From Arenicola marina (Eukaryota > Annelida > Polychaeta > Arenicolidae), in NCBI GenBank assembly GCA_964019135.1, contig OZ025249.1, positions 36,469,759 to 36,533,758 on the forward strand: a stretch of 64,000 nt of DNA, given 5' to 3'. Of this stretch, positions 42,201 to 64,000 are shown in pieces. The notes beneath the pieces are model-generated. The model was not told the DNA's origin. It was given only the letters and a program-made list of their open reading frames with translations, and searched no databases. Each line of letters begins with the position of its first letter. Within the stretch, counting starts at the first letter, position 1. The position numbers and the translations under genes were made by a program.

Positions 42201-42376
42201 TACAAATGGTAGTCGAATTCCGATGTGTCAATCGGGGGTTCGACTCCGGCACCGCGCACGGGCGGCGCTAACTGCTGCTCCGTGACGTTATCTGGAGGCA
42301 GGAAGCTGGCGTCGTCGTCCTGGAAACCCATGTTGGCCTGGGACAGGGAGTAGTCTGACAGCGACGGGAAGGCCAT
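26994..42376 (-). CDS. Rhodopsin-class (family A) neuropeptide-type GPCR, complete six-exon gene
   Basis: The coding sequence joins, in transcript order, 42376-41856, 40586-40463, 34246-34017, 28257-28116, 27684-27559 and 27254-26994. This is 1404 nt and 467 residues, and every intron is GT...AG with compatible phase. It encodes a plasma-membrane seven-helix receptor expected to couple a peptide ligand to G proteins. Visible features are an acidic N-tail with an N-glycosylation sequon (N30-V-T), TM1 about 80-103, TM2 with SLAVADL, Cys149 at the top of TM3, the ERY motif (173-175), TM4 to 215, ECL2 with sequon N225-I-T and Cys234 as disulfide partner, TM5 with Pro260, a basic ICL3, TM6 with CWGP (354-357), TM7 with NPIIY (395-399) and a Cys-rich, Arg-rich tail suited to palmitoylation. 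An in-frame TAG lies five codons before the ATG at 42376. Phrases such as ARKQVIKML and the ERYIVIVHPMKS loop resemble the TRH/ghrelin/CCK-type group of peptide receptors. The exact orthology and ligand are not recognised. Confidence 0.93.
27559..27684 (-). CDS. GPCR exon 5: TM6 and ECL3
   Basis: The acceptor is GGACAG|GTC and the donor GGT|GTAAGC, both phase 0. The exon has 42 codons (340-381). TM6 is VIKMLLTIIAVFLLCWGP, with the Cys-Trp-x-Pro toggle-switch motif. CWGP with Gly between Trp and Pro is less usual than CWLP or CWTP in peptide receptors and may help place the family. ECL3 follows (MKRHEMDILHTNGAFYAG). Confidence 0.92.
27685..28115 (-). other. GPCR intron 4 with purine-rich tract
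   Basis: Short intron (431 bp). On the plus strand about 27988-28040 is a near-pure GGA/GAGG run. The transcribed RNA would therefore carry a long C/U-rich tract, which lies downstream of the donor of exon 4. Confidence 0.8.
28116..28257 (-). CDS. GPCR exon 4: ICL3
   Basis: No simple full-length open frame reveals this exon. It was found by phase matching. Acceptor TTTATTCTAG|T completes the split Ser292, then 47 codons (293-339) encode a hydrophilic Ser/Arg/Lys-rich third intracellular loop ending SDAREARKQ, followed by donor CAG|GTGGGT in phase 0. The loop contains several basic-Ser sites of the kind kinases use. The ARKQ end joins VIKML of the next exon exactly as the start of TM6 in related receptors. 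Confidence 0.88.
29382..29858 (+). mobile_element. RTE-type LINE 3' fragment with C-terminal zinc finger
   Basis: This is the C-terminal tail of a LINE polyprotein. It reads KQRRLRCLGNVHRMQDGRIP, then a GKRPTGRPKLRF block, DVCKRDMKAFGIDTHSWEDL, and a Cys/His finger CDDCGKLCRSQIRLFSHKRQC, here split as CDDCGKLCRSQIRLF and SHKRQC. That order is typical of RTE-like LINE ends in many invertebrates. One in-frame TAG at 29568-29570 interrupts it, replacing a Lys codon usual at that place. The reverse transcriptase itself is absent upstream, so this is a 5'-truncated, dead copy inside GPCR intron 3, in antisense to the gene. Confidence 0.85.
31235..31569. mobile_element. Foldback TIR element with 8-bp target-site duplication
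   Basis: Terminal inverted repeats of about 85 bp at 31235-31319 and 31485-31569 begin ATGGTGGCATATATGTGCCA and differ at about one position. They are flanked by the direct repeat AACTATAT (31227-31234 and 31570-31577). The middle is made of degenerate GCGAGAACGCGAGAATGC units. There is no transposase, so it is a non-autonomous, MITE-like element. An 8-bp duplication is the rule for hAT-type transposases, but the termini do not show the usual hAT CAG start, so the superfamily is open. Confidence 0.88.
32369..32875. repeat. 253-bp tandem duplication, near identical
   Basis: Copies begin at 32369 and 32622 with exact period 253. I find a single substitution between them (CTTACCTGTCATC against CTTACCTATCATC), so the duplication is recent or has been homogenised. 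Confidence 0.95.
34017..34246 (-). CDS. GPCR exon 3: ECL2, TM5, start of ICL3
   Basis: The acceptor is a pyrimidine-rich stretch ending CGCAG|GAC, phase 0. The exon encodes residues 216-291 plus two bases of Ser292. ECL2 contains the sequon NNIT and the conserved cysteine in LTCADS. TM5 holds FLVPVLVMVYCYS with its usual proline and tyrosine. Donor AG|GTGAGA is in phase 2. Confidence 0.92.
36739..36987 (-). mobile_element. tRNA-derived SINE
   Basis: Same family as the copy at 6846-7093. On the plus strand they share TCAGGACGCT, CATATCGCGTCAAT, GAGCCATGTCCCCGGGGGTA-like sequence and a terminal tRNA-like head. The A box has decayed to GATACCTCAGTGGG and the B box is CGGTGGTTCGCGCCCC on the minus strand, so it is an older copy. 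Confidence 0.7.
38288..38360 (-). mobile_element. tRNA-like SINE head
   Basis: The minus strand has GTGGTCAGTGCCCTGGACC, which resembles an A box, and GGATTCGAACCGGG as a B box at tRNA-like spacing. No acceptor stem pairs. It is probably the head of a different SINE family. Confidence 0.4.
39097..39992. repeat. 33-bp minisatellite, about 27 units
   Basis: The unit core is GCTAACCTGTAAATGTGTCC. Period is 33 bp with some 30-bp units that lack one GTT. As three divides both lengths, both strands stay open: minus THLQVSTTTQG (11 residues), plus CVVVLTCKCVP. It lies inside GPCR intron 2, so it is not coding. Confidence 0.93.
40051..40246. repeat. 49-bp tandem repeat, four copies
   Basis: ATGCTATGTAAAGTAAAGTG-like starts at 40051, 40100, 40149 and 40198, an exact 49-bp spacing. 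It lies close to the 33-bp array. Confidence 0.93.
40463..40586 (-). CDS. GPCR exon 2: ERY tyrosine, ICL2 and TM4
   Basis: The acceptor TTCAG|G completes Arg174 and the exon reads YIVIVHPMKSRSWCT, then TM4 with the Ser-Pro pair of its outer half. It ends ...ILYVM|GTAGGT in phase 0 (residues 175-215). The loop after ERY, with a proline four residues on, is normal for peptide receptors. Confidence 0.92.
40587..41855 (-). other. GPCR intron 1
   Basis: Intron of 1.27 kb between the Arg174 split-codon halves. More than half of it is the 44-bp minisatellite described separately. I see no coding or RNA gene in the rest. Confidence 0.85.
40930..41660. repeat. 44-bp minisatellite, about 16 units
   Basis: The unit is built from GACGCCGCCCATTACCGTCA and GGACGCATTCATTATTACCC plus four bases. 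Units vary slightly in length. It occupies most of GPCR intron 1. Confidence 0.9.
41856..42376 (-). CDS. GPCR exon 1: N-tail, TM1-TM3
   Basis: This exon encodes residues 1-173 plus two bases of Arg174. ATG at 42376 is chosen because the codon before it is GTG and an in-frame TAG lies five codons upstream. The context has G at -3 and G at +4. The acidic tail includes EFDYHLYFEDLDQL, whose tyrosines flanked by acids could be sulfated. TM1 carries GNCLVVF (Asn1.50), TM2 carries LAVADL (Asp2.50), and LCKV supplies the TM3 cysteine. The donor is AG|GTGAGT, placing the intron inside the Arg codon of the ERY motif (phase 2). A purely 5' non-coding exon further upstream cannot be excluded. Confidence 0.93.
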
Positions 42377-42385
42377 CACTGGAGC

Positions 42386-42417
42386 TACCTACCTACCTAC
42401 CTGCCTACCTACCTACC
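42386..42417. repeat. (ACCT)n microsatellite in the GPCR 5' UTR
   Basis: Eight tetranucleotide units lie about 10 bp upstream of the GPCR start codon. On the minus strand the run is TAGG-type and supplies the in-frame stop before the ATG. Length changes here would alter the immediate leader. Confidence 0.85.
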
Positions 42418-44263
42418 ACGGGAGGGAGGGGGACCAAACACGATATCCACCGCACCGTATGTTTTAGATAGAATGATATATCCTTTTACCGCCTCATAAT
42501 TATAATCCGGTTGTTTCGATGAAGATCAATTCCTCACAATCCATTATGAAGCCCTCAACCGAGCCGGGTACGTTGTGGTCGCTGACTCCCCGCCACGCGT
42601 ATTCCCCTGTTAGCGGCCCGGACTGAATGCCATCCGGCCTGTGAGGAGCCCTCAGATCCTCCTATCGATGTTTTCTAATTTCCTTCTGTCTCCTCTGAAT
42701 CCGATTGACGTCACTGCGTCCGCTATATATTTATTTATTGATATATATGTGTATATATACAACGGTTGCTTGCATTCAAAGCCTCGAGATATTACCCCGG
42801 TGATTTTCACGCATATTTACCGGACGAGAGGGCCTCTTTCAGAAAGAGGATAAAATGCTGGTATTCATATCGATTCGGCGATGATTCCATTCCACCTTAA
42901 AGGGTTTTGCCTTCCTGTACTTTCTGCAGCTCTGAGAAAGTGTTGATTACCGACCCTGGCGAGCCATGCAAGTGAACTTCCCTGGGCAGAGAGAGAGCTA
43001 GAGAGACAGCGAGAGAGAGGGAGACAGAGAGACAGAGAGACAGAAGGAGGCAGAGGCCGGCCTGAGATGGTGGTGCGGGGCTGACGGCAGGGCGGGGCTA
43101 GGGTGGTGGTGCAGGGATGACGGCAGGGCGTATCTGGGGTGGTGGTGCAGGGATGGCGGCAGGGCGGCGTCGAGTCAAGGAGGGGGGTGGTTGAGGGGCT
43201 GGGGTGGGGTGGCGGCGGTGGTAGCATGCGACTGACGGCGGGGTGGTGTCGAATCGAGGAGCCGCGCTGAGAGGTTGGGCTGGGGGTGAGTGTGCTGGTG
43301 GTATCGGGCTGATGGCGGTGAGGGGCGCCCGGCGGTGACCAGCGAAGGCCAGCGGCGAGGGACTGTTATCCAATGGGAGCGTGCGGTCTCTGCAGGCCGG
43401 CGGGCGCAGAGGGCACAGGCTAGATCACCCTGCGGGGTTGGGAGGTGGGTGGGGGGGGGGGGGCAGCTTGTTATGGGGAGCGACCAGCCCACCGCCCAGT
43501 CAACACATCCCTGCGGTCAGGGCGCAGGGTGTGTTTGCCCCCAGCGCCCCCTGGCGGCCGTAAGGGGTGTCTCCCCCGCACACAGCATGGTACCCCTCGC
43601 CAACCCTATGGAACCACATCCCACCCCAAACCTATGGTACCCTACTCCTCCACACCACTGTCGTACCCTCGCCACCCCGAAACACTACGGAACCCCACCC
43701 CATCTCCAAATGCGTTACTCCTTTTTAACAATACGGAACCGCATCCCACCTCGAACTGCGCCCCCCTCCCCCTCCACAACCCACCGAGACCACGGTACCC
43801 CCTCGGCCCAACACCCCAGGCCACACACCTACACCTTACCGATTACCGAACTTCCCGTTAAACACCAGCTCCCAATCTCCCGTCCACACATGGTTTTTCT
43901 ATTCCAGGCGCGTCCCTTTGTCCTTTCATTCAGTCTCCGTTTGTCACCGCTCAATAGTCGGCGTTACTTAACGGGCGGACGACGACAGGATAATGTCAGT
44001 CGCCGCCGATCTTTTTATTAGACGCCTTCCGCCCGGCGGCGGCCGTCAGTGACGTCATCGGCACCGTGCGACCCCCTCCTCTTCCGTCCCAAGCCCCTCC
44101 CCCCACCTGTCTTCCCCCCCACCCCATTCCTATTCCCTGTCTCCCAGTGTTATCGTCCATGCCCATCAGGTGGCACGCGTAGGGTGCAGCGTGAGCGATG
44201 GCCGCTGACGGAAGTGTGTAAGTCCGCTTGCTCTGTTGGGCGTGTGGATAAACGTTGTGGTTA
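42418..44263. other. GPCR upstream region up to the satellite
   Basis: Would hold the GPCR promoter, but no TATA or initiator can be assigned with confidence. 43.0-43.8 kb is GC-rich with simple repeats and a G13 run at 43451-43463. The satellite starts 1.9 kb upstream of the GPCR start codon. Confidence 0.5.
43005..43260. repeat. (GAGACA)n run and 36-bp GC-rich repeat
   Basis: AGAGAGACAG-type microsatellite at about 42990-43045, then three copies of a 36-bp unit with GGTGGTGCAGGGATGACGGC spaced 36 bp apart (TGGTGC at 43071, 43107 and 43143), decaying rightward. Confidence 0.75.
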
Positions 44264-47200
44264 GACTGGGTGGGTAGCCCCGCAGTGACTGGGTGTGTTA
44301 CACAGCAGTGACTGGGTGGGTAGCCCCGCAGTGACGGGGTGAGTAACACAGCAGTGACTGGGTGGGTAAGCCCGCAGTGTCCGGGTGGGTAACACAGCAG
44401 TGACTGGGTGGGTAACGCCGCAGCGACTGGGTGGGTAACAGAGCAGTGACTGGGTGGGTAAACCCGCAGTGACTGGATGGGTAACCTCGCAGTGACTGGG
44501 TGGGTAACGCCGCAGCGACTGGGTGGGTAACACAGCAGTGACTGGATGGGTAACACAGCCGTGACTGGGTGGGTAACACAGCAGTGACTGGGTGGGTAAC
44601 ACAGCAGTGACTGGGTGAGTAACACAGCAGTGACTGGGTGGGTAAGCCCGCAGTGACTGGGTGGGTAGCCTCGCAGTGACTGGGTGGGTAACGCCGCAGC
44701 GACTGGGTGGGTAACACAGCAGTGACTGGATTGGGAACACAACAGTGACTGGATGGGTAACACAGCAGTGACTGGGTGGGTAAGCCCGCAGTGACTGGGT
44801 GGGTAGCCCCGCAGTGACCGGGTGAGTAACACAGCAGTGACTGGGTGGGTAATCCCGCAGTGACTGGGTGGGTAACTTCGCAGTGACTGGGTGGGTAACG
44901 CCGCAGCGACTGGGTGGGTAACACAGCAGTGACTGCGTGGGTAACACAGCAGTGACTGGGTGGGTAACACAGCAGTGACTGGGTGGGTGGCCCGCAGTGA
45001 CTGGGTGGGTAACCCAGCAGTGACTGGATGGGTAACACAGCAGTGACTGGATGGGTAACCCAGAAGTGACTGGATGGGTAACACAGCAGTGACTGGGTGG
45101 GTAACACAGCAGTGACTGGGTGGGTAACACAGCGGTGACTGGGTGGGTAACACAACAGTGACTGGATGGGTAACCCAGAAGTGACTGGATGGGTAACACA
45201 GCAGTGACTGGGTGGGTAACCCCGCAGTGACTGGGCGGGTAGCCTCGCAGTGACTGGATGGGTAACACAGCAGTGACTGGGTGGGTAACCCAGAAGTGAC
45301 TGGATGGGTAACACAGCAGTGACTGGGTGGGTAACCCAGCAGTGACTGGATGGGTAACACAGCAGTGACTGGGTGGGTAACACAGCAGTGACTGGGTGGG
45401 TAACAAAGCAGTGACTGGATGGGTAACACAGCAGTGACTGGATGGGTAACACAGCAGTGACTGGGTGGGTAGCCCCGCAGTGACTGGGTGGGTAACCCAG
45501 CAGTGACTGGATGGGTAACACATCAGTGATTCGATGGGTAACCCAGCAGTGACTGGATTGGTAACACAGCAGTGACTGGGTGGGTAACACAGCAGTGACT
45601 GGGTGGGCAGCCCCGCAGTGACTGGGTGAGTAACACGGCAGTGACTGGGTGGGTAACACAGCAGTGACTGGATGGGTAACACAGCCGTGACTGGGTGGGT
45701 AACACAGCAGTGACTGGGTGGGTAGCCCCGCAGTGACTGGGTGAGTAACACAGCAGTGACTGGGTGGGTAAGCCCGCAGTGACTGGGTGGGTAACCTCGC
45801 AGTGACTGGGTGGGTAACGCCGCAGCGACTGGGTGGGTAACACAGCAGTGACTGGATGGGTAACACAACAGTGACTGGATGGGTAACACAGCAGTGACTG
45901 GGTGGGTAAGCCCGCAGTGACTGGGTGGGTAGCCCCGCAGTGACCGGGTGAGTAACACAGCAGTGACTGGGTGGGTAATCCCGCAGTGACTGGGTGGGTA
46001 ACTTCGCAGTGACTGGGTGGGTAACGCCGCAGCGACTGGGTGGGTAACACAGCAGTGACTGCGTGGGTAACACAGCAGTGACTGGGTGGGTAACACAGCA
46101 GTGACTGGGTGGGTGGCCCGCAGTGACTGGGTGGGTAACCCAGCAGTGACTGGATGGGTAACACAGCAGTGACTGGATGGGTAACCCAGAAGTGACTGGA
46201 TGGGTAACACAGCAGTGACTGGGTGGGTAACACAGCAGTGACTGGGTGGGTAACACAGCGGTGACTGGGTGGGTAACACAACAGTGACTGGATGGGTAAC
46301 CCAGAAGTGACTGGATGGGTAACACAGCAGTGACTGGGTGGGTAACCCCGCAGTGACTGGGTGGGTAACCCAGAAGTGACTGGATGGGTAACACAGCAGT
46401 GACTGGATGGGTAACACATCAGCGATTCGATGGGTAACCCAGCAGTGACTGGATTGGTAACACAGCAGTGACTGGGTGGGTAACACAGCAGTGACTGGGT
46501 GGGCAGCCCCGCAGTGACTGGGTGAGTAACACGGCAGTGACTGGGTGGGTAACACAGCAGTGACTGGATGGGTAACACAGCAGTGACTGGGTGGGTAACC
46601 CCGCAGTGACTGGGTGGGTAGCCTCGCAGTGACTGGGTGGGTAACACAGCAGTGACTGGGTGGGTAACCCAGCAGTGACTGGATGGGTAATCCCGCAGTG
46701 ACTGGGTGGGTAGCCTCGCAGTGACTGGGTGGGTAACGCCGCAGCGACTGGGTGGGTAATACAGCAGTGACTGGGTGGGTAACCCCGCAGTGACTGGGTG
46801 GGTAACCTCGCAGTGACTGGGTGGGTAACGCCGCAGCGACTGGGTGGGTAACACAGCAGTGACTGGGTGGGTGCCCCACAGTGACCGGGTGAGTAACACA
46901 GCAGTGACTGGGTGGGTAAGCACGCAGTGACTGGGTGGGTAACCTCGCAGTGACTGGGTGGGTAACCCAGCAGTGACTGGGTGGGTAACACCGCAGTGAC
47001 TGGGTGGGTAACCCAGCAGTGACTGGATGGGTAACACAGCAGTGACTGGATGGGTAACCCAGAATTGACTGGATGGGTAACACAGCAGTGACTGTGTGGG
47101 CAACACAGCAGTGACTGGGTGGGTAACACAGCAGTGACTGGGTGGGTAACACAGCAGTGACTGGGTGGGTAATCCAGCAGTGACTGGATGGGTAACACAG

Positions 47201-50200
47201 CAGTGACTGGATGGGTAACCCAGAATTGACTGGGTGGGTAACACAGCAGTGACTGGGTGGGTAACACAGCGGTGACTGGGTGGGTAACACAGCAGTGACT
47301 GGATGGGTAACACAGCAGTGACTGGGTGGGTAACCCCGCAGTGACTGGGTGGGTAGCCTCGCAGTGACTGGGTGGGTAACACAGCAGTGACTGGGTGTGT
47401 AACCCAGCAGTGACTGGATGGGTAACACAGCAGTGACTGGGTGGGTAACCCAGCAGTGACTTGATGGGTAACACAGCAGTGACTGGGTGGGTAACACAGC
47501 AGTGACTGGGTGGGTAACACAGCAGTGACTGGATGAGTAACACAGCAGTGACTGGATGGGTAACACAGCAGTGACTGGGTGGGTAGCCCCGCAGTGACAG
47601 GGTGGGTAACGCAGCAGTGACTGGATGGGTAACACATCAGTGATTCGATGGGTAACCCAGCAGTGACTGGATTGGTAACACAGCAGTGACTGGGTGGGTA
47701 ACACAGCAGTGACTGGGTGGGCAGCCCCGCAGTGACTGGGTGAGTAACACGGCAGTGACTGGGTGGGTAACACAGCAGTGACTGGATGGGTAACACAGCA
47801 GTGACTGGGTGGGTAACCCCGCAGTGACTGGGTGGGTAGCCTCGCAGTGACTGGGTGGGTAACACAGCAGTGACTGGGTGGGTAACCCAGCAGTGACTGG
47901 GTGGGTAACCCCGCAGTGACTGGGTGGGTAGCCTCGCAGTGACTGGGTGGGTAACGCCGCAGCGACTGGGTGGGTAATACAGCAGTGACTGGGTGGGTAA
48001 CCCCGCAGTGACTGGGTGGGTAACCTCGCAGTGACTGGGTGGGTAACGCCGCAGCGACTGGGTGGGTAACACAGCCGTGACTGGGTGGGTAACACAGCAG
48101 TGACTGGGTGGGTAGCCCCGCAGTGACTGGGTGAGTAACACAGCAGTGACTGGGTGGGTAAGCCCGCAGTGACTGGGTGGGTAACCTCGCAGTGACTGGG
48201 TGGGTAACGCCGCAGCGACTGGGTGGGTAACACAGCAGTGACTGGATGGGTAACACAACAGTGACTGGATGGGTAACACAGCAGTGACTGGGTGGGTAAG
48301 CCCGCAGTGACTGGGTGGGTAGCCCCGCAGTGACCGGGTGAGTAACACAGCAGTGACTGGGTGGGTAATCCCGCAGTGACTGGGTGGGTAACTTCGCAGT
48401 GACTCGGTGGGTAACGCCGCAGCGACTGGGTGGGTAACACAGCAGTGACTGCGTGGGTAACACAGCAGTGACTGGGTGGGTAACACAGCAGTGACTGGGT
48501 GGGTGGCCCGCAGTGACTGGGTGGGTAACCCAGCAGTGACTGGATGGGTAACACAGCAGTGACTGGATGGGTAACCCAGAAGTGACTGGATGGGTAACAC
48601 AGCAGTGACTGGGTGGGTAACACAGCAGTGACTGGGTGGGTAACACAGCGGTGACTGGGTGGGTAACACAACAGTGACTGGATGGGTAACCCAGAAGTGA
48701 CTGGATGGGTAACACAGCAGTGACTGGGTGGGTAACCCCGCAGTGACTGGGCGGGTAGCCTCGCAGTGACTGGATGGGTAACACAGCAGTGACTGGGTGG
48801 GTAACCCAGAAGTGACTGGATGGGTAACACAGCAGTGACTGGGTGGGTAACCCAGCAGTGACTGGATGGGTAACACAGCAGTGACTGAGTGGGTAACACA
48901 GCAGTGACTGGGTGGGTAACACAGCAGTGACTGGATGGGTAACACAGCAGTGACTGGATGGGTAACACAGCAGTGACTGGATGGGTAACACATCAGTGAT
49001 TCGATGGGTAACCCAGCAGTGACTGGATTGGTAACACAGCAGTGACTGGGTGGGTAACACAGCAGTGACTGGGTGGGCAGCCCCGCAGTGACTGGGTGAG
49101 TAACACGGCAGTGACTGGGTGGGTAACACAGCAGTGACTGGATGGGTAACACAGCAGTGACTGGGTGGGTAACCCCGCAGTGACTGGGTGGGTAGCCTCG
49201 CAGTGACTGGGTGGGTAACACAGCAGTGACTGGGTGGGTAACCCAGCAGTGACTGGGTGGGTAACACAGCAGTGACTGGATGGGTAATCCCGCAGTGACT
49301 GGGTGGGTAGCCTCGCAGTGACTGGGTGGGTAACGCCGCAGCGACTGGGTGGGTAATACAGCAGTGACTGGGTGGGTAACCCCGCAGTGACTGGGTGGGT
49401 AACCTCGCAGTGACTGGGTGGGTAACGCCGCAGCGACTGGGTGGGTAACACAGCAGTGACTGGGTGGGCGCCCCACAGTGACCGGGTGAGCAACACAGCA
49501 GTGACTGGGTGGGTAAGCACGCAGTGACTGGGTGGGTAACCTCGCAGTGACTGGGTGGGTAACCCAGCAGTGACTGGGTGGGTAACACCGCAGTGACTGG
49601 GTGGGTAACCCAGCAGTGACTGGATGGGTAACACAGCAGTGACTGGATGGGTAACCCAGAATTGACTGGATGGGTAACACAGCAGTGACTGTGTGGGCAA
49701 CACAGCAGTGACTGGGTGGGTAACACAGCAGTGACTGGGTGGGTAACACAGCAGTGACTGGGTGGGTAATCCAGCAGTGACTGGATGGGTAACACAGCAG
49801 TGACTGGATGGGTAACCCAGAATTGACTGGGTGGGTAACACAGCAGTGACTGGGTGGGTAACACAGCGGTGACTGGGTGGGTAACACAGCAGTGACTGGA
49901 TGGGTAACACAGCAGTGACTGGGTGGGTAACCCCGCAGTGACTGGGTGGGTAGCCTCGCAGTCACTGGGTGGGTAACACAGCAGTGACTGGGTGTGTAAC
50001 CCAGCAGTGACTGGATGGGTAACACAGCAGTGACTGGGTGGGTAACCCAGCAGTGACTGGATGGGTAACACAGCAGTGACTGGGTGGGTAACACAGCAGT
50101 GACTGGGTGGGTAACACAGCAGTGACTGGATGAGTAACACAGCAGTGACTGGATGGGTAACACAGCAGTGACTGGGTGGGTAGCCCCGCAGTGACAGGGT

Positions 50201-53200
50201 GGGTAACGCAGCAGTGACTGGATGGGTAACACAGCAGTGATTCGATGGGTAACCCAGCAGTGACTGGATTGGTAACACAGCAGTGACTGGGTGGGTAACA
50301 CAGCAGTGACTGGGTGGGCAGCCCCGCAGTGACTGGGTGAGTAACACGGCAGTGACTGGGTGGGTAACACAGCAGTGACTGGATGGGTAACACAGCAGTG
50401 ACTGGGTGGGTAACCCCGCAGTGACTGGGTGGGTAGCCTCGCAGTGACTGGGTGGGTAACACAGCAGTGACTGGGTGGGTAACCCAGCAGTGACTGGGTG
50501 GGTAACCCCGCAGTGACTGGGTGGGTAGCCTCGCAGTGACTGGGTGGGTAACGCCGCAGCGACTGGGTGGGTAATACAGCAGTGACTGGGTGGGTAACCC
50601 CGCAGTGACTGGGTGGGTAACCTCGCAGTGACTGGGTGGGTAACGCCGCAGCGACTGGGTGGGTAACACAGCAGTGACTGGGTGGGGAGCCCCGCAGTGA
50701 CCGGGTGAGTAACACAGCAGTGACTGGGTGGGTAAGCCCGCATTGACTGGGTGGGTAACCTCGCAGTGACTGGGTGGGTAACGCCGGAGCGACTGGGTGG
50801 GTAACACAGCAGTGACTGGGTGGGTAACACAGCAGTGACTGGGTGGGTAACCCAGCAGTGACTGGGTGGGTAACCCAGCAGTGACTGGGTGGGTAACACA
50901 GCAGTGACTGGGTGGGTAACACAGCAGTGACTGGGTGGGTAACACAGCAGTGACTGGGTGGTTAGCCCCGCAGTGACTGGGTGGGTAACCCAGCAGTGAC
51001 TGGATGGGTAACACAGCAATGACTGGATGGGTAACCCAGAAGTGACTGGATGGGTAACACAGCAGTGAGTGGGTGGGTAACACAGCAGTGACTGGATGGG
51101 TAACACAGCAGTGACTGGATGGGTAACACAGCAGTGACTGGGTGGGTAGCCCCGCAGTGACTGGGTGGGTAACGCAGCAGTGACTGGATGGGTAACACAT
51201 CAGTGATTCGATGGGTAACCCAGCAGTGACTGGATTGGTAACACAGCAGTGACTGGGTGAGTAACACGGCAGTGACTGGGTGGGTAACACAGCAGTGACT
51301 GGATGGGTAACACAGCAGTGACTGGGTGGGTAACCCCGCAGTGACTGGGTGGGTAGCCTCGCAGTGACTGGGTGGGTAACAGAGCAGTGACTGGGTGGGT
51401 AACCCAGCAGTGACTGGGTGGGTAACCCCGCAGTGACTGGGTGGGTAGCCTCGCAGTGACTGCGTGGGTAACGCCGCAGCGACTGGGTGGGTAATACAGC
51501 AGTGACTGGGTGGGTAACCCCGCAGTGACTGGGTGGGTAACCTCGCAGTGACTGGGTGGGTAACGCCGCAGCGACTGGGTGGGTAACACAGCAGTGACTG
51601 GGTGGGTAAGCCCGCATTGACTGGGTGGGTAACCCAGCAGTGACTGGGTGGGTAACCCAGCAGTGACTGGGTGGGTAACACCGCAGTGACTGGGTGGGTA
51701 ACACAGCAGTGACTGGGTGGGTAAGCCCGCATTGACTGGGTGGGTAACCCAGCAGTGAGTGGGTGGGTAACCCAGCAGTGACTGGGTGGGTAACACCGCA
51801 GTGACTGGGTGGGTAACACAGCAGTGACTGGGTGGGTAACACAGCAGTGACTGGGTGGTTAGCCCCGCAGTGACTGGGTGGGTAACCCAGCAGTGACTGG
51901 ATGGGTAACACAGCAGTGACTGGATGGGTAACCCAGAAGTGACTGGATGGGTAACACAGCAGTGACTGGGTGGGCAACACAGCAGTGACTGGGTGGGTAA
52001 CACAGCAGTGACTGGGTGGGTAACCCAGTAGTGACTGGATGGGTAACACAGCAGTGACTGGGTGGGTAACCCCGCAGTGACTGGGTGTGAAGCCTCGCAG
52101 TGACTGGGTGGGTAACACAGCAGTGACTGGGTGGGTAACCCAGCAGTGACTGGATGGGTAACACAGCAGTGACTGGGTGGGTGACACAGCAGTGACTGGG
52201 TGAGTAACACAGCAGTGACTGGGTGGGTAACAGCGGTGACTGGGTGGGTAACACAGCAGTGACTGGGTGGGTAACCCAGCAGTGACTGGATGGGTAACAC
52301 AGCAGTGATTGGGTGGGTAACACAGCAGTGACTGGGTGGGTAACCCAGCAGTGACTGGGTGAGTAACCTCGCAGTGACTGGGTGGGTAGCCCCGCAGTGA
52401 CTAGGTGAGCAACACAGCAGTGACTGGGTGAGTAACACAGCAGTGACTGGGTGGGTAACCCCGCAGTGACTGGGTGGGTAGCCTCGCAGTGACTGGGTGG
52501 GTAACGCCGCAGCGACTGGGTGGGTAATACAGCAGTGACTGGGTGGGTAACCCCGCAGTGACTGGGTGGGTAACCTCGCAGTGACTGGGTGGGTAGCCCC
52601 GCAGTGACCGGGTGAGTAACACAGCATTGACTGGGTGGGTAAGCCCGCATTGACTGGGTGGGTAACCTCGCAGTGACTGGGTGGGTAACGCCGGAGCGAC
52701 TGGGTGGGTAACACAGCAGTGACTGGGTGGGTAACACAGCAGTGACTGGGTGGGTAACCCAGCAGTGACTGGGTGGGTAACCCAGCAGTGACTGGGTGGG
52801 TAACACCGCAGTGACAGGGTGGGTAACACAGCAGTGACTGGGTGGGTAACACAGCAGTGACTGGGTGGGTAACACAGCAGTGACTGGGTGGTTAGCCCCG
52901 CAGTGACTGGGTGGGTAACCCAGCAGTGACTGGATGGGTAACACAGCAGTGACTGGATGGGTAACCCAGAAGTGACTGGATGGGTAACACAGCAGTGACT
53001 GGGTGGGTAACACAGCAGTGACTAGGTGGGTAGCACAGCAGTGACTGGATGGGTAACAGCAGTGACTGGATGGGTAACACAGCAGTGACTGGGTGGGTAG
53101 CCCCGCAGTGACTGGGTGGGTAACGCAGCAGTGACTGGATGGGTAACACATCAGTGATTCGATGGGAAACCCAGCAGTGACTGGGTGGGTAACCCCGCAG

Positions 53201-56200
53201 TGACTGGGTGGGTAGCCTCGCAGTGACTGTGTGGGTAACGCCGCAGCGACTGGGTGGGTAATACAGCAGTGACTGGGTGGGTAACCCCGCAGTGACTGGG
53301 TGGGTAACCTCGCAGTGACTGGGTGGGTAACGCCGCAGCGACTGGGTGGGTAACACAGCAGTGACTGGGTGGGTAGCCCCCGCAGTGACCGGGTGAGTAA
53401 CACAGCAGTGACTGGGTGGGTAAGCCCGCGTTGACTGGGTGGGTAACCCAGCAGTGACTGGGTGGGTAACCCAGCAGTGACTGGGTGGGTAACACCGCAG
53501 TGACTGGGTGGGTAACACAGCAGTGACTGGGTGGGTAACACAGCAGTGACTGGGTGGTTAGCCCCGCAGTGACTGGGTGGGTAACCCAGCAGTGACTGGA
53601 TGGGTAACACAGCAGTGACTGGATGGGTAACCCAGAAGTGACTGGATGGGTAACACAGCAGTGACTGGGTGGGCAACACAGCAGTGACTGGGTGGGTAAC
53701 ACAGCAGTGACTGGGTGGGTAACACAGCAGTGACTGGGTGGGTAATCCAGCAGTGACTGGATGGGTAACACAGCAGTGACTGGGTGGGTAACCCAGTAGT
53801 GACTGGATGGGTAACACAGCAGTGACTGGGTGGGTAACCCCGCAGTGACTGGGTGTAAAGCCTCGCAGTGACTCGGTGGGTAACACAGCAGTGACTGGGT
53901 GGGTAACCCAGCAGTGACTGGATGGGTAACACAGCAGTGACTGGGTGGGTGATACAGCAGTGACTGGGTGAGTAACACAGCAGTGACTGGGTGGGTAACA
54001 GCGGTGACTGGGTGGGTAACACAGCAGTGACTGGGTGGGTAACCCCGCAGTGACTGGGTTCGTAACACAGCAGTGACTGGATGGGTAACACAGCAGTGAC
54101 TGGATGGGTAACACAGCAGTGACTGGGTGGGTAACCCAGCAGTGACTGGATGGGTAACACAGCAGTGATTGGGGGGGTAACACAGCAGTGACTGGGTGGG
54201 TAACCCAGCAGTGACTGGGTGAGTAACCTCGCAGTGACTGGGTGGGTAGCCCCGCAGTGACTAGGTGAGTAACACAGCAGTTACTGGGTAAGTAACACAG
54301 CAGTGACTGGGTGGGTAACACAGCAGTGATTGGGTGGGCAACCCCGCAGTGACTGGGTGGGTAGCCTCGCAGTGACTCGTTGGGTAACCCAGCAGTGACT
54401 GGGTGGGTAACACAGCAGTGACTGGGTGGGTAACCCAGCAGTGACAGGATGGGTAACACCGCAGTGCATGGGTGGGTAACACAGCAGTGAGTGAGTGGGT
54501 AACACAGCAGTGACTGGATGGGTAACACAGCAGTGACTGGGTGGGTAACACAGCAGTGACTGGATGGGTAAAACAGCAGTGACTGGGTGGGTAACACAGC
54601 AATGACTGGGTGGGTAACACAGCAGGGACTGGGTGGGTAACACAGCAGTGACTGGGTGGGTAACACAGCAGTGACTGGGTGGGTAACCCAGCAGTGACTG
54701 GATGGCTAACACAGCAGTGACTAGGTGGGTAACACAGCAGTGACTGGATGGGTAACACAGCAGTGACTGGGTGGGTAACACAGCAATGACTGGGTGGGTA
54801 GCCCCGCAGTGACTGGGTGGGTAACCCAGCAGTGACTGGATGGGTAACACAGCAGTGACTGGGTGGGTAACAGAGCAGTGACTGGATGGGTAACACAGCA
54901 GTGACTGGGTGGGTAACCCAGCAGTGACTGGATGGGCAACACAGCAGTGACTGGGTGGGTAAACCCGCAGTGACTGGATGGGTAGCCTAGCAGTGACTGG
55001 GTGGGTAACACAGCAGTGACTGGGTGGGTAACACAGCAGTGACTGGATGGGTAACACAGCAGTGACTTGGTGGGTAACACAGCAGTGACTGGGTGGGTAA
55101 CCCCGCAGTGACTGGGTGGGTAGCCCCGCAGTGACTGGGTGGGTAACACAGCAGTGCCTGGGTGGGTAACGCAGTGACTGGGTGGGTAAGCCCGCAGTGA
55201 CTGGGTGGGTAACACAGCAGTGACTGAGTGGGTAACCCAGCAGTGACTGGGTGGGTAACCTCGCAGTGACTGGGTGGGTAACAGCGGTGACTGGGTGGGT
55301 AACACAGCAGTGACTGGGTGGGTAACCTCGCGGTGATTGGGTGGGTAACACAGCAGTGACTGGGTGGGTAGCTCCGCAGTGACTGGGTGGGTAACCCAGC
55401 AGTGACTGGGTGGGTAACACCGCAGTGACTGGGTGGGTAACACAGCAGTGACTGGATGGGTAACACAGCAGTGACTGGGTGGGTAACCCCGCAGTAACTG
55501 GGTGGGTGGCCTCGCAGTGACTGGGTGGGTAATACAGCAGTGACTAGGTGGGTAACCCAGCAGTGACTGGATGGGTAACCCCGCAGTGACTGGGTGTGAA
55601 GCCTCGCAGTGACTGGGTGGGTAACACAGCAGTGACTGGGTGGGTAACCCAGCAGTGACTGGATGGGTGACACAGCAGTGACTGGGTGGGTAACACAGCA
55701 GTGACTGGGTGAGTAACACAGCAGTGACTGTGTGGGTAACAGCGGTGACTGGGTGGGTAACACAGCAGCGACTGGGTGGGTAACCCCGCAGTGACTGGGT
55801 TCGTGACACAGCAGTGACTGGATGGGTAACACAGCAGTGACTGGATGGGTAACACAGCAGTGACTGGGTGGGTAACCCAGCAGTGACTGGATGGGTAACA
55901 CGGCAGTGACTGGGTGGGTAACACAGCAGTGACTGGGTGGGTAACCCAGCAGTGACTGGGTGGGTAACCTCGCAGTGACTGGGTGGGTAGCCCCGCAGTG
56001 ACTAGGTGAGTAACACAGCAGTGACTGGGTGAGTAACACAGCAGTGACTGGGTGGGTAACACAGCAGTGATTGGGTGGGCAACCCCGCAGTGACTGCGTG
56101 GGTAGCCTCGCAGTTACTCGTATGGTAACCCAGCAGTGACTGGGTGGGTAACCTCGCAGTGACTGGGTGGGTACCCCAGCAGTGACAGGATGGGTAACAC

Positions 56201-59200
56201 CGCAGTGCATGGGTGGGTAACACAGCAGTGAGTGAGTGGGTAACACAGCAGTGACTGGATGGGTAACACAGCAGTGACTGGGTGGGTAACACAGCAGTGA
56301 CTGGATGGGTAAAACAGCAGTGACTGGGTGGGTAACACAGCAGTGACTGGGTGGGTAACACAGCAGTGACTGGGTGGGTAACACAGCAGTGACTGGGTGG
56401 GTAACACAGCAGTGACTAGGTGGGTAACCCAGTAGTGACTGGATGGCTAACACAGCAGTGACTAGGTGGGTAACACAGCAGTGACTGGATGGGTAACACA
56501 GCAGTGACTGGGTGGGTAACAGCAGTGACTGGGTGGGTAACACAGCAGTGACTGGGTGGGTAACCTCGCGGTGACTGGGTGGGTAACACAGCAGTGACTG
56601 GATGGGTAACACAGCAGTGACTGGGTGGGTAACCCCGCAGTAACTGGGTGGGTGGCCTCGCAGTGACTGGGTGGGTAATACAGCAGTGACTAGGTGGGTA
56701 ACCCAGCAGTGACTGGATGGGTAACCCCGCAGTGACTGGGTGTGAAGCCTCGCAGTGACTGGGTGGGTAACACAGCAGTGACTGGGTGGGTAACCCAGCA
56801 GTGACTGGATGGGTAACACAGCAGTGACTGGGTGGGTAACACAGCAGTGACTGGGTGAGTAACACAGCAGTGACTGTGTGGGTAACAGCGGTGACTGGGT
56901 GGGTAACACAGCAGCGACTGGGTGGGTAACCCCGCAGTGACTGGGTTCGTAACACAGCAGTGACTGGATGGGTAACACAGCAGTGACTGGATGGGTAACA
57001 CTGCAGTGACTGGGTGGGTAACCCAGCAGTGACTGGATGGGTAACACAGCAGTGACTGGGTGGGTAACACAGCAGTGACTGGGTGGGTAACCCAGCAGTG
57101 ACTGGGTGGGTAACCTCGCAGTGACTGTGTGGGTAGCCCCGCAGTGACTAGGTGAGTAACACAGTGGTGACTGGGTGAGTAACACAGCAGTGACTGGGTG
57201 GGTAACACAGCAGTGATTGGGTGGGCAACCCCGCAGTGACTGGGTGGGTAGCCTCGCAGTGACTCCTATGGTAACCCAGCAGTGACTGGGTGGGTAATCT
57301 CGCAGTGACTGGGTGGGTAACCCAGCAGTGACAGGATGGGTAACACCGCAGTGACTGGGTGGGTAACACAGCAGTGACTAGGTGGGTAACAGAGCAGTGA
57401 CTGGATGGGTAACACAGCAGTGACTGGGTGTGTAACACAGCAGTGACTAGGTGGGTAACAGAGCAGTGACTGGATGGGTAACACAGCAGTGACTGGGTGT
57501 GTAACCCAGCAGTGACTGGATGGGCAACACAGCAGTGACTGGGTGGGTAACCCCGCAGTGACTGGATGGGTAGCCTAGCAGTGACTGGGTGGGTAACACA
57601 GCGGTGACTGGGTGGGTAACACAGCAGTGACTGGATGGGTAACACAACAGTGACTTGGTGGGTAACACAGCAGTGACTGGGTGGGTAACCCCGCAGTGAC
57701 TGGGTGGGTAGTCCCGCAGTGACTGGGTGGGTAACACAGCAGTGCCTGGGTGGGTAACAGCAGTGACTGGGTGGGTAAGCCCGCAGTGACTGGGTGGGTA
57801 ACACAGCAGTGACTGAGTGGGTAACCCAGCAGTGACTGGGTGGGTAACCTCGCAGTGACTGGGTGGGTAACACAGCAGTGACTGGGTGGGTAACACAGCA
57901 GTGACTGGGTGGGTAACAACAGTGACTGGGTGGGTAACCTCGCAGTGACTGGGTGGGTAACCTCGCGGTGACTGGGTGGGTAACACAGCAGTGACTGGGT
58001 GGGTAGCCCCGCAGTGATTGGGTGGGTAACCCAGCAGTGACTGGGTGGGTAGCCTCGCAGTGACTCGGTGGGTAACCCAGCAGTGACTGGGTGGGTCACC
58101 TCGCAGTGACTGGGTGGGTAACACAGCAGTGACTGGGTGGGTAAAACAGCAGTGACTGGGTGGGTAACACAGCAGTGACTGGGTGGGTAACACAGCAGTG
58201 ACTGGGTGGGTAACACAGCAGTGACTGGGTGGGTAACACAGCAGTGACTAGGTGGGTAACCCAGTAGTGACTGGATGGGTAACCCGGCAGTGACTGGGTG
58301 GGTAACAGAGCAGTGACTGGATGGGTAACACAGCAGTGACTGGGTGTGTAACCCCGCAGTGACTGGGTGGGTAGCCCCGCAGTGACTGGGTGGGTAACAC
58401 AGCAGTGCCTGGGTGGGTAACAGCAGTGACTGGGTGGGTAAGCCCGCAGTGACTGGGTGGGTAACACAGCAGTGACTGAGTGGGTAACCCAGCAGTGACT
58501 GGGTGGGTAACCTCGCAGTGACTGGGTGGGTAACACAGCAGTGACTGGGTGGGTAACACAGCAGTGACTGGGTGGGTAACAACAGTGACTGGGTGGGTAA
58601 CACAGCAGTGACTGGGTGGGTAACCTCGCGGTGACTGGGTGGGTAACCTCGCAGTGACTGGGTGGGTAGCCCCGCAGTGACTGGGTGGGTAACCCAGCAG
58701 TGACTGGGTGGGTAGCCTCGCAGTGACTCGGTGGGTAACCCAGCAGTGACTGGGTGGGTCACCTCGCAGTGACCGGGTGGGTAACACAGCAGTGACTGGG
58801 TGGGTAAAACAGCAGTGACTGGGTGGGTAACACAGCAGTGACTGGGTGGGTAACACAGCAGTGACTGGGTGGGTAACACAGCAGTGACTGGGTGGGTAAC
58901 ACAGCAGTGACTAGGTGGGTAACCCAGTAGTGACTGGATGGGTAACCCGGCAGTGACTGGGTGGGTAACAGAGCAGTGACTGGATGGGTAACACAGCAGT
59001 GACTGGGTGTGTAACCTCGCAGTGACTGGGTGGGTAACCCAGCAGTGACAGGATGGGTAACACCGCAGTGCATGGGTGGGTAACACAGCAGTGAGTGAGT
59101 GGGTAACACAGCAGTGACTGGATGGGTAACACAGCAGTGACTGGGTGGGTAACACAGCAGTGACTGGATGGGTAACACAGCAGTGACTGGATGGGTAACA

Positions 59201-60085
59201 CAGCAGTGACTGGGTGGGTAACACAGCAGTGACTGGGTGGGTAACACAGCAGTGACTGGGTGGGTAACACAGCAGTGACTGGGTGGGTAACAGCAGTGAC
59301 TGGGTGGGTAACGCAGCAGTGACTGGGTGGGTAACCTCGCGGTGACTGGGTGGGTAACACAGCAGTGACTGGATGGGTAACACAGCAGTGACTGGGTGGG
59401 TAACCCCGCAGTAACTGGGTGGGTGGCCTCGCAGTGACTGGGTGGGTAATACAGCAGTGACTAGGTGGGTAACCCAACAGTGACTGGATGGGTAACCCCG
59501 CAGTGACTGGGTGTGAAGCCTCGCAGTGACTGGGTGGGTAATACAGCAGTGACTGGGTGGGTAACCCAGCAGTGACTGGATGGGTAACACAGCAGTGACT
59601 GGGTGGGTAACACAGCAGTGACTGGGTGAGTAACACAGCAGTGACTGTGTGGGTAACAGCGGTGACTGGGTGGGTAACACAGCAGCGACTGGGTGGGTAA
59701 CCCCGCAGTGTCTGGGTTCGTAACACAGCAGTGACTGGATGGGTAACACAGCAGTGACTGGATGGGTAACACAGCAGTGACTGGGTAGGTAACCCAGCAG
59801 TGACTGGATGGGTAACACAGCAGTGACTGGGTGGGTAACACAGCCGTGACTGGGTGGGTAACCCAGCAGTGACTGGGTGGGTAACCTCGCAGTGACTGGG
59901 TGGGTAGCCCCGCAGTGACTGGGTGGGTAACACAGCAGTGACTGGGTGGGTAACCTCGCGGTGACTGGGTGGGTAACACAGCAGTGACTGGGTGGGTAGC
60001 CCCGCAGTGACTGGGTGGGTAACCCAGCAGTGACTGGGTGGGTAGCCTCGCAGTGACTCGGTGGGTAACCCAGCAGTGACTGGGT

Positions 60086-62078
60086 GGGTCACCTCGCAGT
60101 GACTGGGTGGGTAACACAGCAGTGACTGGGTGGGTAAAACAGCAGTGACTGGGTGGGTAACACAGCAGTGACTGGGTGGGTAACACAGCAGTGACTGGGT
60201 GGGTAACACAGCAGTGACTGGGTGGGTAACACAGCAGTGACTAGGTGGGTAACCCAGTAGTGACTGGATGGGTAACCCGGCAGTGACTGGGTGGGTAACA
60301 GAGCAGTGACTGGATGGGTAACACAGCAGTGACTGGGTGTGTAACCCCGCAGTGACTGGGTGGGTAGCCCCGCAGTGACTGGGTGGGTAACACAGCAGTG
60401 CCTGGGTGGGTAACAGCAGTGACTGGGTGGGTAAGCCCGCAGTGACTGGGTGGGTAACACAGCAGTGACTGAGTGGGTAACCCAGCAGTGACTGGGTGGG
60501 TAACCTCGCAGTGACTGGGTGGGTAACACAGCAGTGACTGGGTGGGTAACACAGCAGTGACTGGGTGGGTAACAACAGTGACTGGGTGGGTAACACAGCA
60601 GTGACTGGGTGGGTAACCTCGCGGTGACTGGGTGAGTAACACAGCAGTGACTGGGTGGGTAGCCCCGCAGTGACTGGGTGGGTAACCCAGCAGTGACTGG
60701 GTGGGTAGCCTCGCAGTGACTCGGTGGGTAACCCAGCAGTGACTGGGTGGGTCACCTCGCAGTGACTGGGTGGGTAACACAGCAGTGACTGGGTGGGTAA
60801 AACAGCAGTGACTGGGTGGGTAACACAGCAGTGACTGGGTGGGTAACACAGCAGTGACTGGGTGGGTAACACAGCAGTGACTGGGTGGGTAACACAGCAG
60901 TGACTAGGTGGGTAACACAGTAGTGACTGGATGGGTAACCCGGCAGTGACTGGGTGGGTAACAGAGCAGTGACTGGATGGGTAACACAGCAGTGACTGGG
61001 TGTGTAACCTCGCAGTGACTGGGTGGGTAACCCAGCAGTGACAGGATGGGTAACACCGCAGTGCATGGGTGGGTAACACAGCAGTGAGTGAGTGGGTAAC
61101 ACAGCAGTGACTGGATGGGTAACCCAGCAGTGACTGGGTGGGTAACACAGCAGTGACTGGATGGGTAACACAGCAGTGACTGGATGGGTAACACAGCAGT
61201 GACTGGGTGGGTAACACAGCAGTGACTGGGTGGGTAACACAGCAGTGACTGGGTGGGTAACACAGCAGTGACTGGGTGGGTAACAGCAGTGACTGGGTGG
61301 GTAACGCAGCAGTGACTGGGTGGGTAACCTCGCGGTGACTGGGTGGGTAACACAGCAGTGACTGGATGGGTAACACAGCAGTGACTGGGTGGGTAACCCC
61401 GCAGTAACTGGGTGGGTGGCCTCGCAGTGACTGGGTGGGTAATACAGCAGTGACTAGGTGGGTAACCCAACAGTGACTGGATGGGTAACCCCGCAGTGAC
61501 TGGGTGTGAAGCCTCGCAGTGACTGGGTGGGTAATACAGCAGTGACTGGGTGGGTAACCCAGCAGTGACTGGATGGGTAACACAGCAGTGACTGGGTGGG
61601 TAACACAGCAGTGACTGGGTGAGTAACACAGCAGTGACTGTGTGGGTAACAGCGGTGACTGGGTGGGTAACACAGCAGCGACTGGGTGGGTAACCCCGCA
61701 GTGTCTGGGTTCGTAACACAGCAGTGACTGGATGGGTAACACAGCAGTGACTGGATGGGTAACACAGCAGTGACTGGGTAGGTAACCCAGCAGTGACTGG
61801 ATGGGTAACACAGCAGTGACTGGGTGGGTAACCTCGCAGTGACTGGGTGGGTAGCCCCGCAGTGACTAGGTGAGTAACACAGCAGTGACTGGGTGAGTAA
61901 CACAGCAGTGACTGGGTGGGTAACACAGCAGTGATTGGGTGGGTAACACAGCAGTGACTGGGTGGGTAACCCAGCAGTGACTGGGTGAGTAACCTCGCAG
62001 TGACTGGGTGGGTAGCCCCGCAGTGACTAGGTGAGCAACACAGCAGTGACTGGGTGAGTAACACAGCAGTGACTGGGT
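60086..62078. repeat. Second copy of a 1993-bp higher-order repeat
   Basis: Variant markers recur at a fixed 1993-bp offset: GGGTCACCTCGC at 58093 and 60086, and again at 58756 and 60749; AGTGCCTGGG at 58404 and 60397. The parent copy begins about 58093. The match decays near the right end, so the boundary is approximate. Confidence 0.85.
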
Positions 62079-63900
62079 GGGTAACCCCGCAGTGACTGGG
62101 TGGGTAGCCTCGCAGTGACTGGGTGGGTAACGCCGCAGCGACTGGGTGGGTAATACAGCAGTGACTGGGTGGGTAACCCCGCAGTGACTGGGTGGGTAAC
62201 CTCGCAGTGACTGGGTGGGTAGCCCCGCAGTGACCGGGTGAGTAACACAGCATTGACTGGGTGGGTAAGCCCGCATTGACTGGGTGGGTAACCTCGCAGT
62301 GACTGGGTGGGTAACGCCGGAGCGACTGGGTGGGTAACACAGCAGTGACTGGGTGGGTAACACAGCAGTGACTGGGTGGGTAACCCAGCAGTGACTGGGT
62401 GGGTAACCCAGCAGTGACTCGGTGGGTAACACCGCAGTGACAGGGTGGGTAACACAGCAGTGACTGGGTGGGTAACACAGCAGTGACTGGGTGGGTAACA
62501 CAGCAGTGACTGGGTGGTTAGCCCCGCAGTGACTGGGTGGGTAACCCAGCAGTGACTGGATGGGTAACACAGCAGTGACTGGATGGGTAACCCAGAAGTG
62601 ACTGGATGGGTAACACAGCAGTGACTGGGTGGGTAACACAGCAGTGACTAGGTGGGTAGCACAGCAGTGACTGGATGGGTAACACAGCAGTGACTGGATG
62701 GGTAACACAGCAGTGACTGGGTGGGTAGCCCCGCAGTGACTGGGTGGGTAACGCAGCAGTGACTGGATGGGTAACACATCAGTGATTCGATGGGTAACCC
62801 AGCAGTGACTGGGTGGGTAACCCCGCAGTGACTGGGTGGGTAGCCTCGCAGTGACTGTGTGGGTAACGCCGCAGCGACTGGGTGGGTAATACAGCAGTGA
62901 CTGGGTGGGTAACCCCGCAGTGACTGGGTGGGTAACCTCGCAGTGACTGGATGGGTAACGCCGCAGTGACTGGGTGGGTAACACAGCAGTGACTGGGTGG
63001 GTAACACAGCAGTGACTGGGTGGTTAGCCCCGCAGTGACTGGGTGGGTAACCCAGCAGTGACTGGATGGGTAACACAGCAGTGACTGGGTGGGTAGCCCC
63101 CGCAGTGACCGGGTGAGTAACACAGCAGTGACTGGGTGGGTAAGCCCGCATTGACTGGGTGGGTAACCCAGCAGTGACTGGGTGGGTAACCCAGCAGTGA
63201 CTGGGTGGGTAACACCGCAGTGACTGGGTGGGTAACACAGCAGTGACTGGGTGGGTAACACAGCAGTGACTGGGTGGTTAGCCCCGCAGTGACTGGGTGG
63301 GTAACCCAGCAGTGACTGGATGGGTAACACAGCAGTGACTGGATGGGTAACCCAGAAGTGACTGGATGGGTAACACAGCAGTGACTGGGTGGGCAACACA
63401 GCAGTGACTGGGTGGGTAACACAGCAGTGACTGGGTGGGTAACACAGCAGTGACTGGGTGGGTAATCCAGCAGTGACTGGATGGGTAACACAGCAGTGAC
63501 TGGGTGGGTAAGCCAGTAGTGACTGGATGGGTAACACAGCAGTGACTGGGTGGGTAACCCCGCAGTGACTGGGTGTGAAGCCTCGCAGTGACTCGGTGGG
63601 TAACACAGCAGTGACTGGGTGGGTAACCCAGCAGTGACTGGATGGGTAACACAGCAGTGACTGGGTGGGTGATACAGCAGTGACTGGGTGAGTAACACAG
63701 CAGTGACTGGGTGGGTAACAGCGGTGACTGGGTGGGTAACACAGCAGTGACTGGGTGGGTAACCCCGCAGTGACTGGGTTCGTAACACAGCAGTGACTGG
63801 ATGGGTAACACAGCAGTGACTGGATGGGTAACACAGCAGTGACTGGGTGGGTAACCCAGCAGTGACTGGATGGGTAACACAGCAGTGATTGGGTGGGTAA
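60900..63900. repeat. Copy of a large duplicated block of the satellite (offset about 9.6-9.7 kb)
   Basis: Unit order at 51.3-54.2 kb is repeated at 60.9-63.9 kb. The offset is 9626 bp at 52401-52852/62027-62478 and 9720 bp at 53558-54160/63278-63880, so a small indel separates the two parts. Confidence 0.8.
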
Positions 63901-64000
63901 CACAGCAGTGACTGTGTGGGTAACAGCGGTGACTGGGTGGGTAACACAGCAGCGACTGGGTGGGTAACCCCGCAGTGTCTGGGTTCGTAACACAGCAGTG

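Follow-up and report, generated by a model that had tools for sequence, protein, structure and literature searches.

A 70.5-kb array of 23-bp units at a single assembly locus of the annelid Arenicola marina, probably a minisatellite turned over in large blocks

The DNA analysed here, in the following called the window, is a stretch of 64,000 nucleotides from the annelid Arenicola marina (contig OZ025249.1, below C2; C2:36469759-36533758). It carries the predicted first coding exon of a rhodopsin-family G-protein-coupled receptor (GPCR) and, 1.9 kb to the right of this exon, the beginning of a long tandem array of 23-bp units. For the window part of the array, Tandem Repeats Finder (TRF) reports 860 copies with 87% match, 0% indels and a score of 28,656. 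An earlier interpretation made from the letters of the window (the sequence-only reading) had described an uninterrupted 23-bp array of at least 19.7 kb, possibly heterochromatin next to a gene; the uninterrupted array and the neighbouring gene are both confirmed. Of the span it proposed, the start at 44264 stands, but the end at 64000 does not, as this position is only the window edge, at which the array is cut. When the window positions are extended into 140 kb fetched to the right (continued numbering), the array runs on for another 50.8 kb, to C2:36584548. The full array (G000:C2:36514022-36584548) comprises 70,527 bp and 3,078 units and has its right end at about 114790 in continued numbering, where it decays to irregular units. 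Neither the window part nor the continuation contains an insertion or an N. The array lies at 36.5 Mb on C2, which is 61.5 Mb long in an assembly of 867 Mb. Another contig of this assembly, C762 (15,942 bp), is interpreted as the mitochondrial genome: Pfam identified COX1, with 13 internal TGA codons, and with its remaining open frames assigned by eye the order on one strand is COX1, COX2, COX3, ND6, CYTB, ATP6, ND5, ND4, tRNA-Val, ND1, ND3, ND2, which corresponds to the annelid ground pattern. The features of the locus are collected in Table 1.

Table 1. Features of the window and its continuation. Positions count from the first letter of the window.
Feature	Position	Strand	Basis and remarks
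39-bp minisatellite	10934-12063		TRF
33-bp minisatellite, 27 copies	39105..39980	.	TRF
44-bp minisatellite, left of the GPCR exon, on the side of the presumed first intron	40989..41632	.	TRF
Open frame (stop included) with the predicted first coding exon of a peptide-receptor-like GPCR of the rhodopsin family	41852..42388	-	Pfam 7tm_1, E 9.5e-20
36-bp tandem repeat, 2.8 copies, between GPCR exon and array	43068..43167	.	TRF
23-bp minisatellite, consensus GACTGGGTGGGTAACACAGCAGT	44264..64000	+ (G-rich strand)	Left 19.7 kb of the 70.5-kb array; TRF, unit decomposition
Left end domain, shorter exact copies	44264..53215	+	First four lots of 100 units: longest copied run with a median of 6-18 units
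Tandem block duplication, first copy	59523..63925	+	Length 4,403 bp, shift 4,267 bp, 12 mismatches
Tandem block duplication, second copy	63790-68192 (continued numbering)	+	Pairs with 59523..63925

Units were delimited by wrap-around alignment. All of them measure 20-25 bp, within the range of about 7-100 bp that characterises minisatellites, and they follow each other head to tail in one orientation. The great majority (2,928 of 3,078) are 23 bp long, 134 have 21 bp, and the other 16 have 20, 22, 24 or 25 bp. The array is a mosaic of 210 distinct unit variants, 53 of them singletons, which are interspersed as is usual for minisatellites; 677 of the 3,078 units are identical to the consensus. 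The homogeneity that had been attributed to the array is therefore overstated at the level of the unit. Positions 7, 14 and 16-18 of the unit are the most variable.

A search of the whole assembly with the 23-bp consensus, as the sequence-only reading had proposed, leads to a single locus. With at most three mismatches the unit has 2,551 forward matches and no reverse match, and 2,550 of the 2,551 lie inside the array. The sole match outside (C1:53233220) is at chance level, as the pattern read backwards has 2 matches in the genome; the same comparison, 2,551 versus 2, excludes chance for the array itself. All 1,467 genome matches of a two-unit pattern fall inside the array. Along this line, the left flank (41852-44263) gives one full-length match among 40 scored of 97 candidates, its other listed matches being short and on one low-complexity stretch, plus one relative of the GPCR exon. 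The right flank likewise gives one full-length match, and two shifted ones within the 57-bp tandem repeat that it contains; here 40 of 158 candidates were scored. No second full-length copy of either flank was found among the scored candidates. Since the unit occurs at one place and no such second flank appeared, we rejected an origin from a mobile element, as far as these searches extend.

Within the assembly, and hence for assembled DNA, a satellite common to several chromosomes is excluded. The notion of a dispersed satellite, or of a centromeric or subtelomeric one shared by many chromosomes, thus does not agree with the single assembly locus. Classical satellites are abundant and occur on many or all chromosomes, whereas the array amounts to 70.5 kb at one locus, about 0.008% of 867 Mb. 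Macrosatellites of the DXZ4 or D4Z4 type have kilobase units, while the unit here has 23 bp and the shifts between copied blocks are irregular. A single locus within the assembled DNA is what is expected of a minisatellite. In a literature text search, with repeat libraries outside its scope, the unit strings gave no match, in agreement with the initial impression that the unit is not a recognised satellite. The exact 23-mer has 0 matches in viral contigs, bacterial genomes and archaeal genomes, as expected for an animal repeat.

Neighbouring units are about as alike as random ones: the probability of identity is 0.078 for neighbours (lag 1) and 0.073 for a random pair, and no more than 4 identical units stand in a row. 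A signal of single-unit slippage is absent. Long blocks, by contrast, are copied, with exact repeats of at least 150 bp covering 95.3% of the array in 1,304 maximal pairs, the longest of 2,790 bp. Of all units, 61% belong to exactly copied runs that are 40 or more units long, and 29% to runs of 80 or more. A Lempel-Ziv (LZ) parse divides the unit string into 613 phrases, compared with a mean of 2,003 (standard deviation, sd, 10) in 20 shuffled orders and 1,138 (sd 16) in 20 first-order Markov strings.

Fourteen block pairs, picked from the longest exact matches and hence an incomplete list, were extended; their shifts span 1.1 to 21.6 kb. The ratio of length to shift is 1.03, 1.08, 1.13 and 1.12 in four of them (shifts of 4,267, 3,457, 1,098 and 2,221 bp, respectively), and 0.87 in a fifth at a shift of 3,315 bp. 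Ratios near 1, as in these five pairs, are the mark of tandem duplication. A windowed scan contributed more pairs near 1, with shifts of 1,964 and 1,993 bp.

Towards the ends of the array, exact copies are on average shorter. Besides the four leftmost lots of 100 units (Table 1), the last two show median longest copied runs of 9 and 20 units, the very last lot holding 78 units instead of 100. For the 25 lots between the ends the medians lie at 13-121, the middle one being 62. A smaller share of the array ends in recent exchange is a prediction of the theory of unequal exchange. The first 300 units, within the left end domain, contain no 21-bp unit. The right boundary of this domain, 53215, was chosen by us as the place where copies shifted by 13.99 kb begin.

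Duplication and deletion were simulated with four step ranges, three mutation settings and two seeds, giving 24 runs. Steps of 1-3 units (6 runs) produced lag-1 identities of 0.42-0.88 and identical-unit runs of 35-210, unlike the array; on these grounds, together with the lag-1 identity and the short identical runs observed, single-unit slippage was rejected. Steps of 5-20 units (6 runs) left a share of 0.00 (rounded) of the units in copied runs that reach 40 units. When the step was 50-200 or 100-300 units and the mutation setting was the lowest (4 runs), the shares rose to 0.53-0.65 for runs of at least 40 units and 0.27-0.37 for at least 80, the observed values being 0.61 and 0.29. The best run (50-200 units, one mutation per event, second seed) came close on all measures, with a lag-1 identity of 0.073 and a longest run of 4. 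The best-fitting simulations introduce no more than about one or two new unit variants per exchange over the whole 70 kb. Within the models, an exchange step of about 50-300 units is supported, while the mutation ratio is rough.

We interpret the feature, with a probability of roughly 0.8, as a non-coding, single-locus, G-rich minisatellite (variable number tandem repeat, VNTR) of 70.5 kb whose turnover proceeds through unequal exchange in a large register or through copy-back repair. Sister or homologous arrays would be misaligned by tens to hundreds of units when they pair, and unequal exchange or copy-back repair in this position would duplicate or remove blocks of about 1-7 kb. By such gain and loss of blocks, the array would grow, shrink and become homogenised. 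The unequal exchange already suspected by the sequence-only reading gains support from the exact block repeats, from duplications whose length approximates their shift, and from simulations favouring steps of about 50-300 units. The blocks probably arose by exchange and not by another duplication process; the locus is presumably still unstable, and the array is likely to have no function of its own. Its sequence is new, its kind is already known, and it does not constitute a new class of element.

Several observations weigh against this interpretation. In 7 of the 14 extended pairs the ratio of length to shift is 0.18-0.66, for which nesting, later events or conversion are needed, and in two it is 1.45 and 1.58, indicating more than two copies; the nine pairs well off 1 do not prove crossing over. 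Two of the 25 interior lots have a median longest copied run of 20 or less, and by this measure the interior lots are not all younger than the ends. Concerning the simulations, steps of 1-3 units at the lowest mutation setting yielded copied-run shares like those observed, and two runs with 5-20 units came near the observed lag-1 identity (0.090 and 0.073) with copied runs unmatched. The twin of the best run, with 50-200 units at the same setting, had a lag-1 identity of 0.001 and a random-pair identity P of 0.032 versus 0.073 observed. Two runs with 100-300 units at the lowest setting reached P values of 0.017 and 0.025, and P did not exceed 0.010 when the mutation setting was higher. Moreover, the simulation counts each mutation as a new variant, and four step ranges only were explored. 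Finally, the array is known from one assembly, and its length and its block copies may partly be assembly error.

Taken further, this last point becomes an explanation of its own, according to which the true array is shorter or longer and the block copies result from wrong joins or from duplicated haplotype paths. Near-identical stretches do reach a length that is beyond short or noisy reads, the closest long pair extending over 4,444 bp with 3 mismatches at a distance of 6,759 bp. On the other hand, the array lies in one contig, is free of N and is bordered by single-copy flanks on both sides, and the block copies differ by scattered changes and recur at many different shifts rather than as one repeated segment; accurate reads of 10-20 kb would resolve them. 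We therefore regard an assembly artefact as unlikely.

By analogy with DXZ4-like arrays, the thousands of similar short sites might instead act on the GPCR gene or on chromatin folding. The exon reads away from the array and turns its 5' side towards it, which places the array upstream of the first coding exon, and strand asymmetry is strong (GC skew about +0.31). The unit can fold on itself with an outer stem ACTG/CAGT and an inner stem GTG/CAC, and the G-rich strand folds better than shuffled sequences in all four pieces analysed: the consensus has a z value of -2.41, with 4 of 200 shuffles as good, and three pieces of the array have -2.99, -3.07 and -4.89, values that none of their 200 shuffles equalled. 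For two of these array pieces, the C-rich strand gives -1.33 and -1.37. Compensatory change, however, is not general: over the 7 pairs of the hairpin and 192 distinct 23-bp variants, double changes number 3 at one pair versus 0.53 under shuffling, 3 versus 5.85 at another, and 0 at the other five. The candidate of a selected hairpin was rejected on this basis, and no function is claimed for it. G-quadruplexes (G4) were likewise rejected as the main property of the array, which contains 0 canonical motifs; 25-bp windows with an absolute G4Hunter score of at least 1.2 make up 0.2% of the array and 4.4% and 5.6% of the flanks. A looser G4 pattern with one long loop has 808 matches in the array, which is weak evidence. 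A regulatory or structural role of the array thus appears decidedly improbable.

The array could also be a chromosome-specific centromeric satellite of C2 that is homogenised like higher-order repeats. Its interior position on the contig is compatible with this, as is the part from 87 to 111 kb (continued numbering), where copies at shifts of 3.3-4.1 kb form an irregular higher-order array. The array measures only 70 kb, however, it has no match on another contig beyond the one chance-level hit, and a GPCR exon lies in its immediate vicinity. The one regular period of centromeric higher-order repeats is absent as well, the best of the lags from 1 to 1,499 units giving 16.7% identity. Taken together, a centromeric nature is very improbable. 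That the array encodes a repetitive protein can be dismissed: minus-strand frames are open for up to 2,312 codons, but stops are about equally rare in all three (85, 80 and 71, each frame having about 23,493 codons), without one frame protected from stops as in a coding VNTR, and the total of 236 stops is unchanged by unit shuffling (235-237 in 5 shuffles), so that this openness is a by-product of a unit sequence whose length is not a multiple of 3.

The receptor exon to the left of the minisatellite has its best solved relatives among galanin, histamine, cholecystokinin (CCK) and neuropeptide receptors. A minus-strand GTGAGT, resembling a splice donor, is located at 41855-41850, the end of the open frame. 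A relative of the exon with 70% DNA identity at C2:35999787-36000086, about 0.5 Mb leftward, suggests a local receptor duplication.

The region of the window is rich in unrelated tandem repeats. In the right flank, 2.0-9.0 kb past the array edge, there are two minisatellites, one of 2.2 kb with 39 copies of a 57-bp unit and one of 2.1 kb with 53 copies of a 40-bp unit, and 2.2 kb is also the size of the largest other array in the flanks. Flanks of 64 kb to the left and 89 kb to the right served as a baseline for tandem-repeat density. Tandem repeats with a period of at least 7 occupy 34% of the first 16 kb on the right and 16% on the left, compared with 5% and 8%, respectively, in the rest of the flanks; farther out on the left, the bin at 32-40 kb likewise has a high value (19%). 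A circular-shift test with 20,000 shifts, for which the 16-kb limit was set post hoc, gave p = 0.0015 for the crowding of minisatellites near the array. This crowding is an exploratory result and a lead only. It would fit a more far-reaching view, which we consider doubtful at present: the array may mark a fixed zone within an annelid chromosome that is prone to breaks or active in recombination, being the extreme product of a local process that crowds unrelated tandem repeats around it, and may renew itself by the exchange of kilobase blocks.

What is known of minisatellite mutation comes mostly from mammals and yeast, in which many mutants are a few units longer or shorter. An assembled array of 3,078 units with a readable string of variants records its own history, and here this record indicates a step size of about 50-300 units. 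Provided that reads bear out the assembly, the array would be a convenient natural archive in which the dependence of step size on array length could be tested, and the surrounding crowd of minisatellites would provide a testable prediction on hotspots of breakage or recombination away from chromosome ends.

Further repeats were noted in the vicinity. In the right flank, a part of about 343 bp (L014:2004-2347; C2:36585762-36586105) is a dispersed repeat to which sequences on many contigs are related; at C18:22676103-22677607 a portion of it is found again at intervals of 89 bp. On the plus strand, 13654-16487 holds open frames resembling a non-LTR (long terminal repeat) retrotransposon, which we take to be similar to endonuclease and reverse transcriptase; three frames were scanned without a Pfam match. 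Positions 1-3000 of the window have 33 further matches (72-87% identity) 30-102 kb leftward, several of them spaced by about 11.4 kb (C2:36390415, 36401892, 36413269), which perhaps reflects an older large tandem duplication.

With respect to known systems, MS32, CEB1 and MSY1 are human hypervariable minisatellites with short units and interspersed variant repeats, features that the Arenicola array shares. A repair-based exchange, synthesis-dependent strand annealing (SDSA), has been proposed for human hypervariable minisatellites. Length mutants of MSY1 change by 1-3 units and MSY1 repeats form blocks of one type (PMC2599865). In these respects the annelid array differs from MSY1, since its neighbouring units are no more alike than random ones and its steps would comprise tens to hundreds of units.

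A survey of human VNTRs above 10 kb describes units of 20 bp and up, at single loci and belonging to no known repeat class; higher-order structure occurs in several, such as a 61-bp VNTR whose blocks of 1.6 and 2.5 kb are irregular (PMC2588610). Classical VNTRs extend to about 50 kb according to the text of this survey, whose table also includes units of up to 1.8 kb and a 246-kb array of a 125-bp unit on the Y chromosome (PMC2588610). Measured against these cases, our array is similar in its short unit, its single locus and its size above 10 kb, and differs in combining 70.5 kb with a 23-bp unit, in belonging to an annelid, and in being called a VNTR from one assembly. Single-locus arrays of the mouse also have short units, some with higher-order structure, such as a 17-bp unit in 10.3 kb, and among the rows listed they are smaller than the array studied here (PMC3218096). 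One mouse array classified there as single-locus gave about fifty signals in fluorescence in situ hybridisation (FISH), which advises caution for the single-locus claim made here (PMC3218096). By this comparison, the array of A. marina is best placed with the human and mouse single-locus arrays, as a larger example in another phylum.

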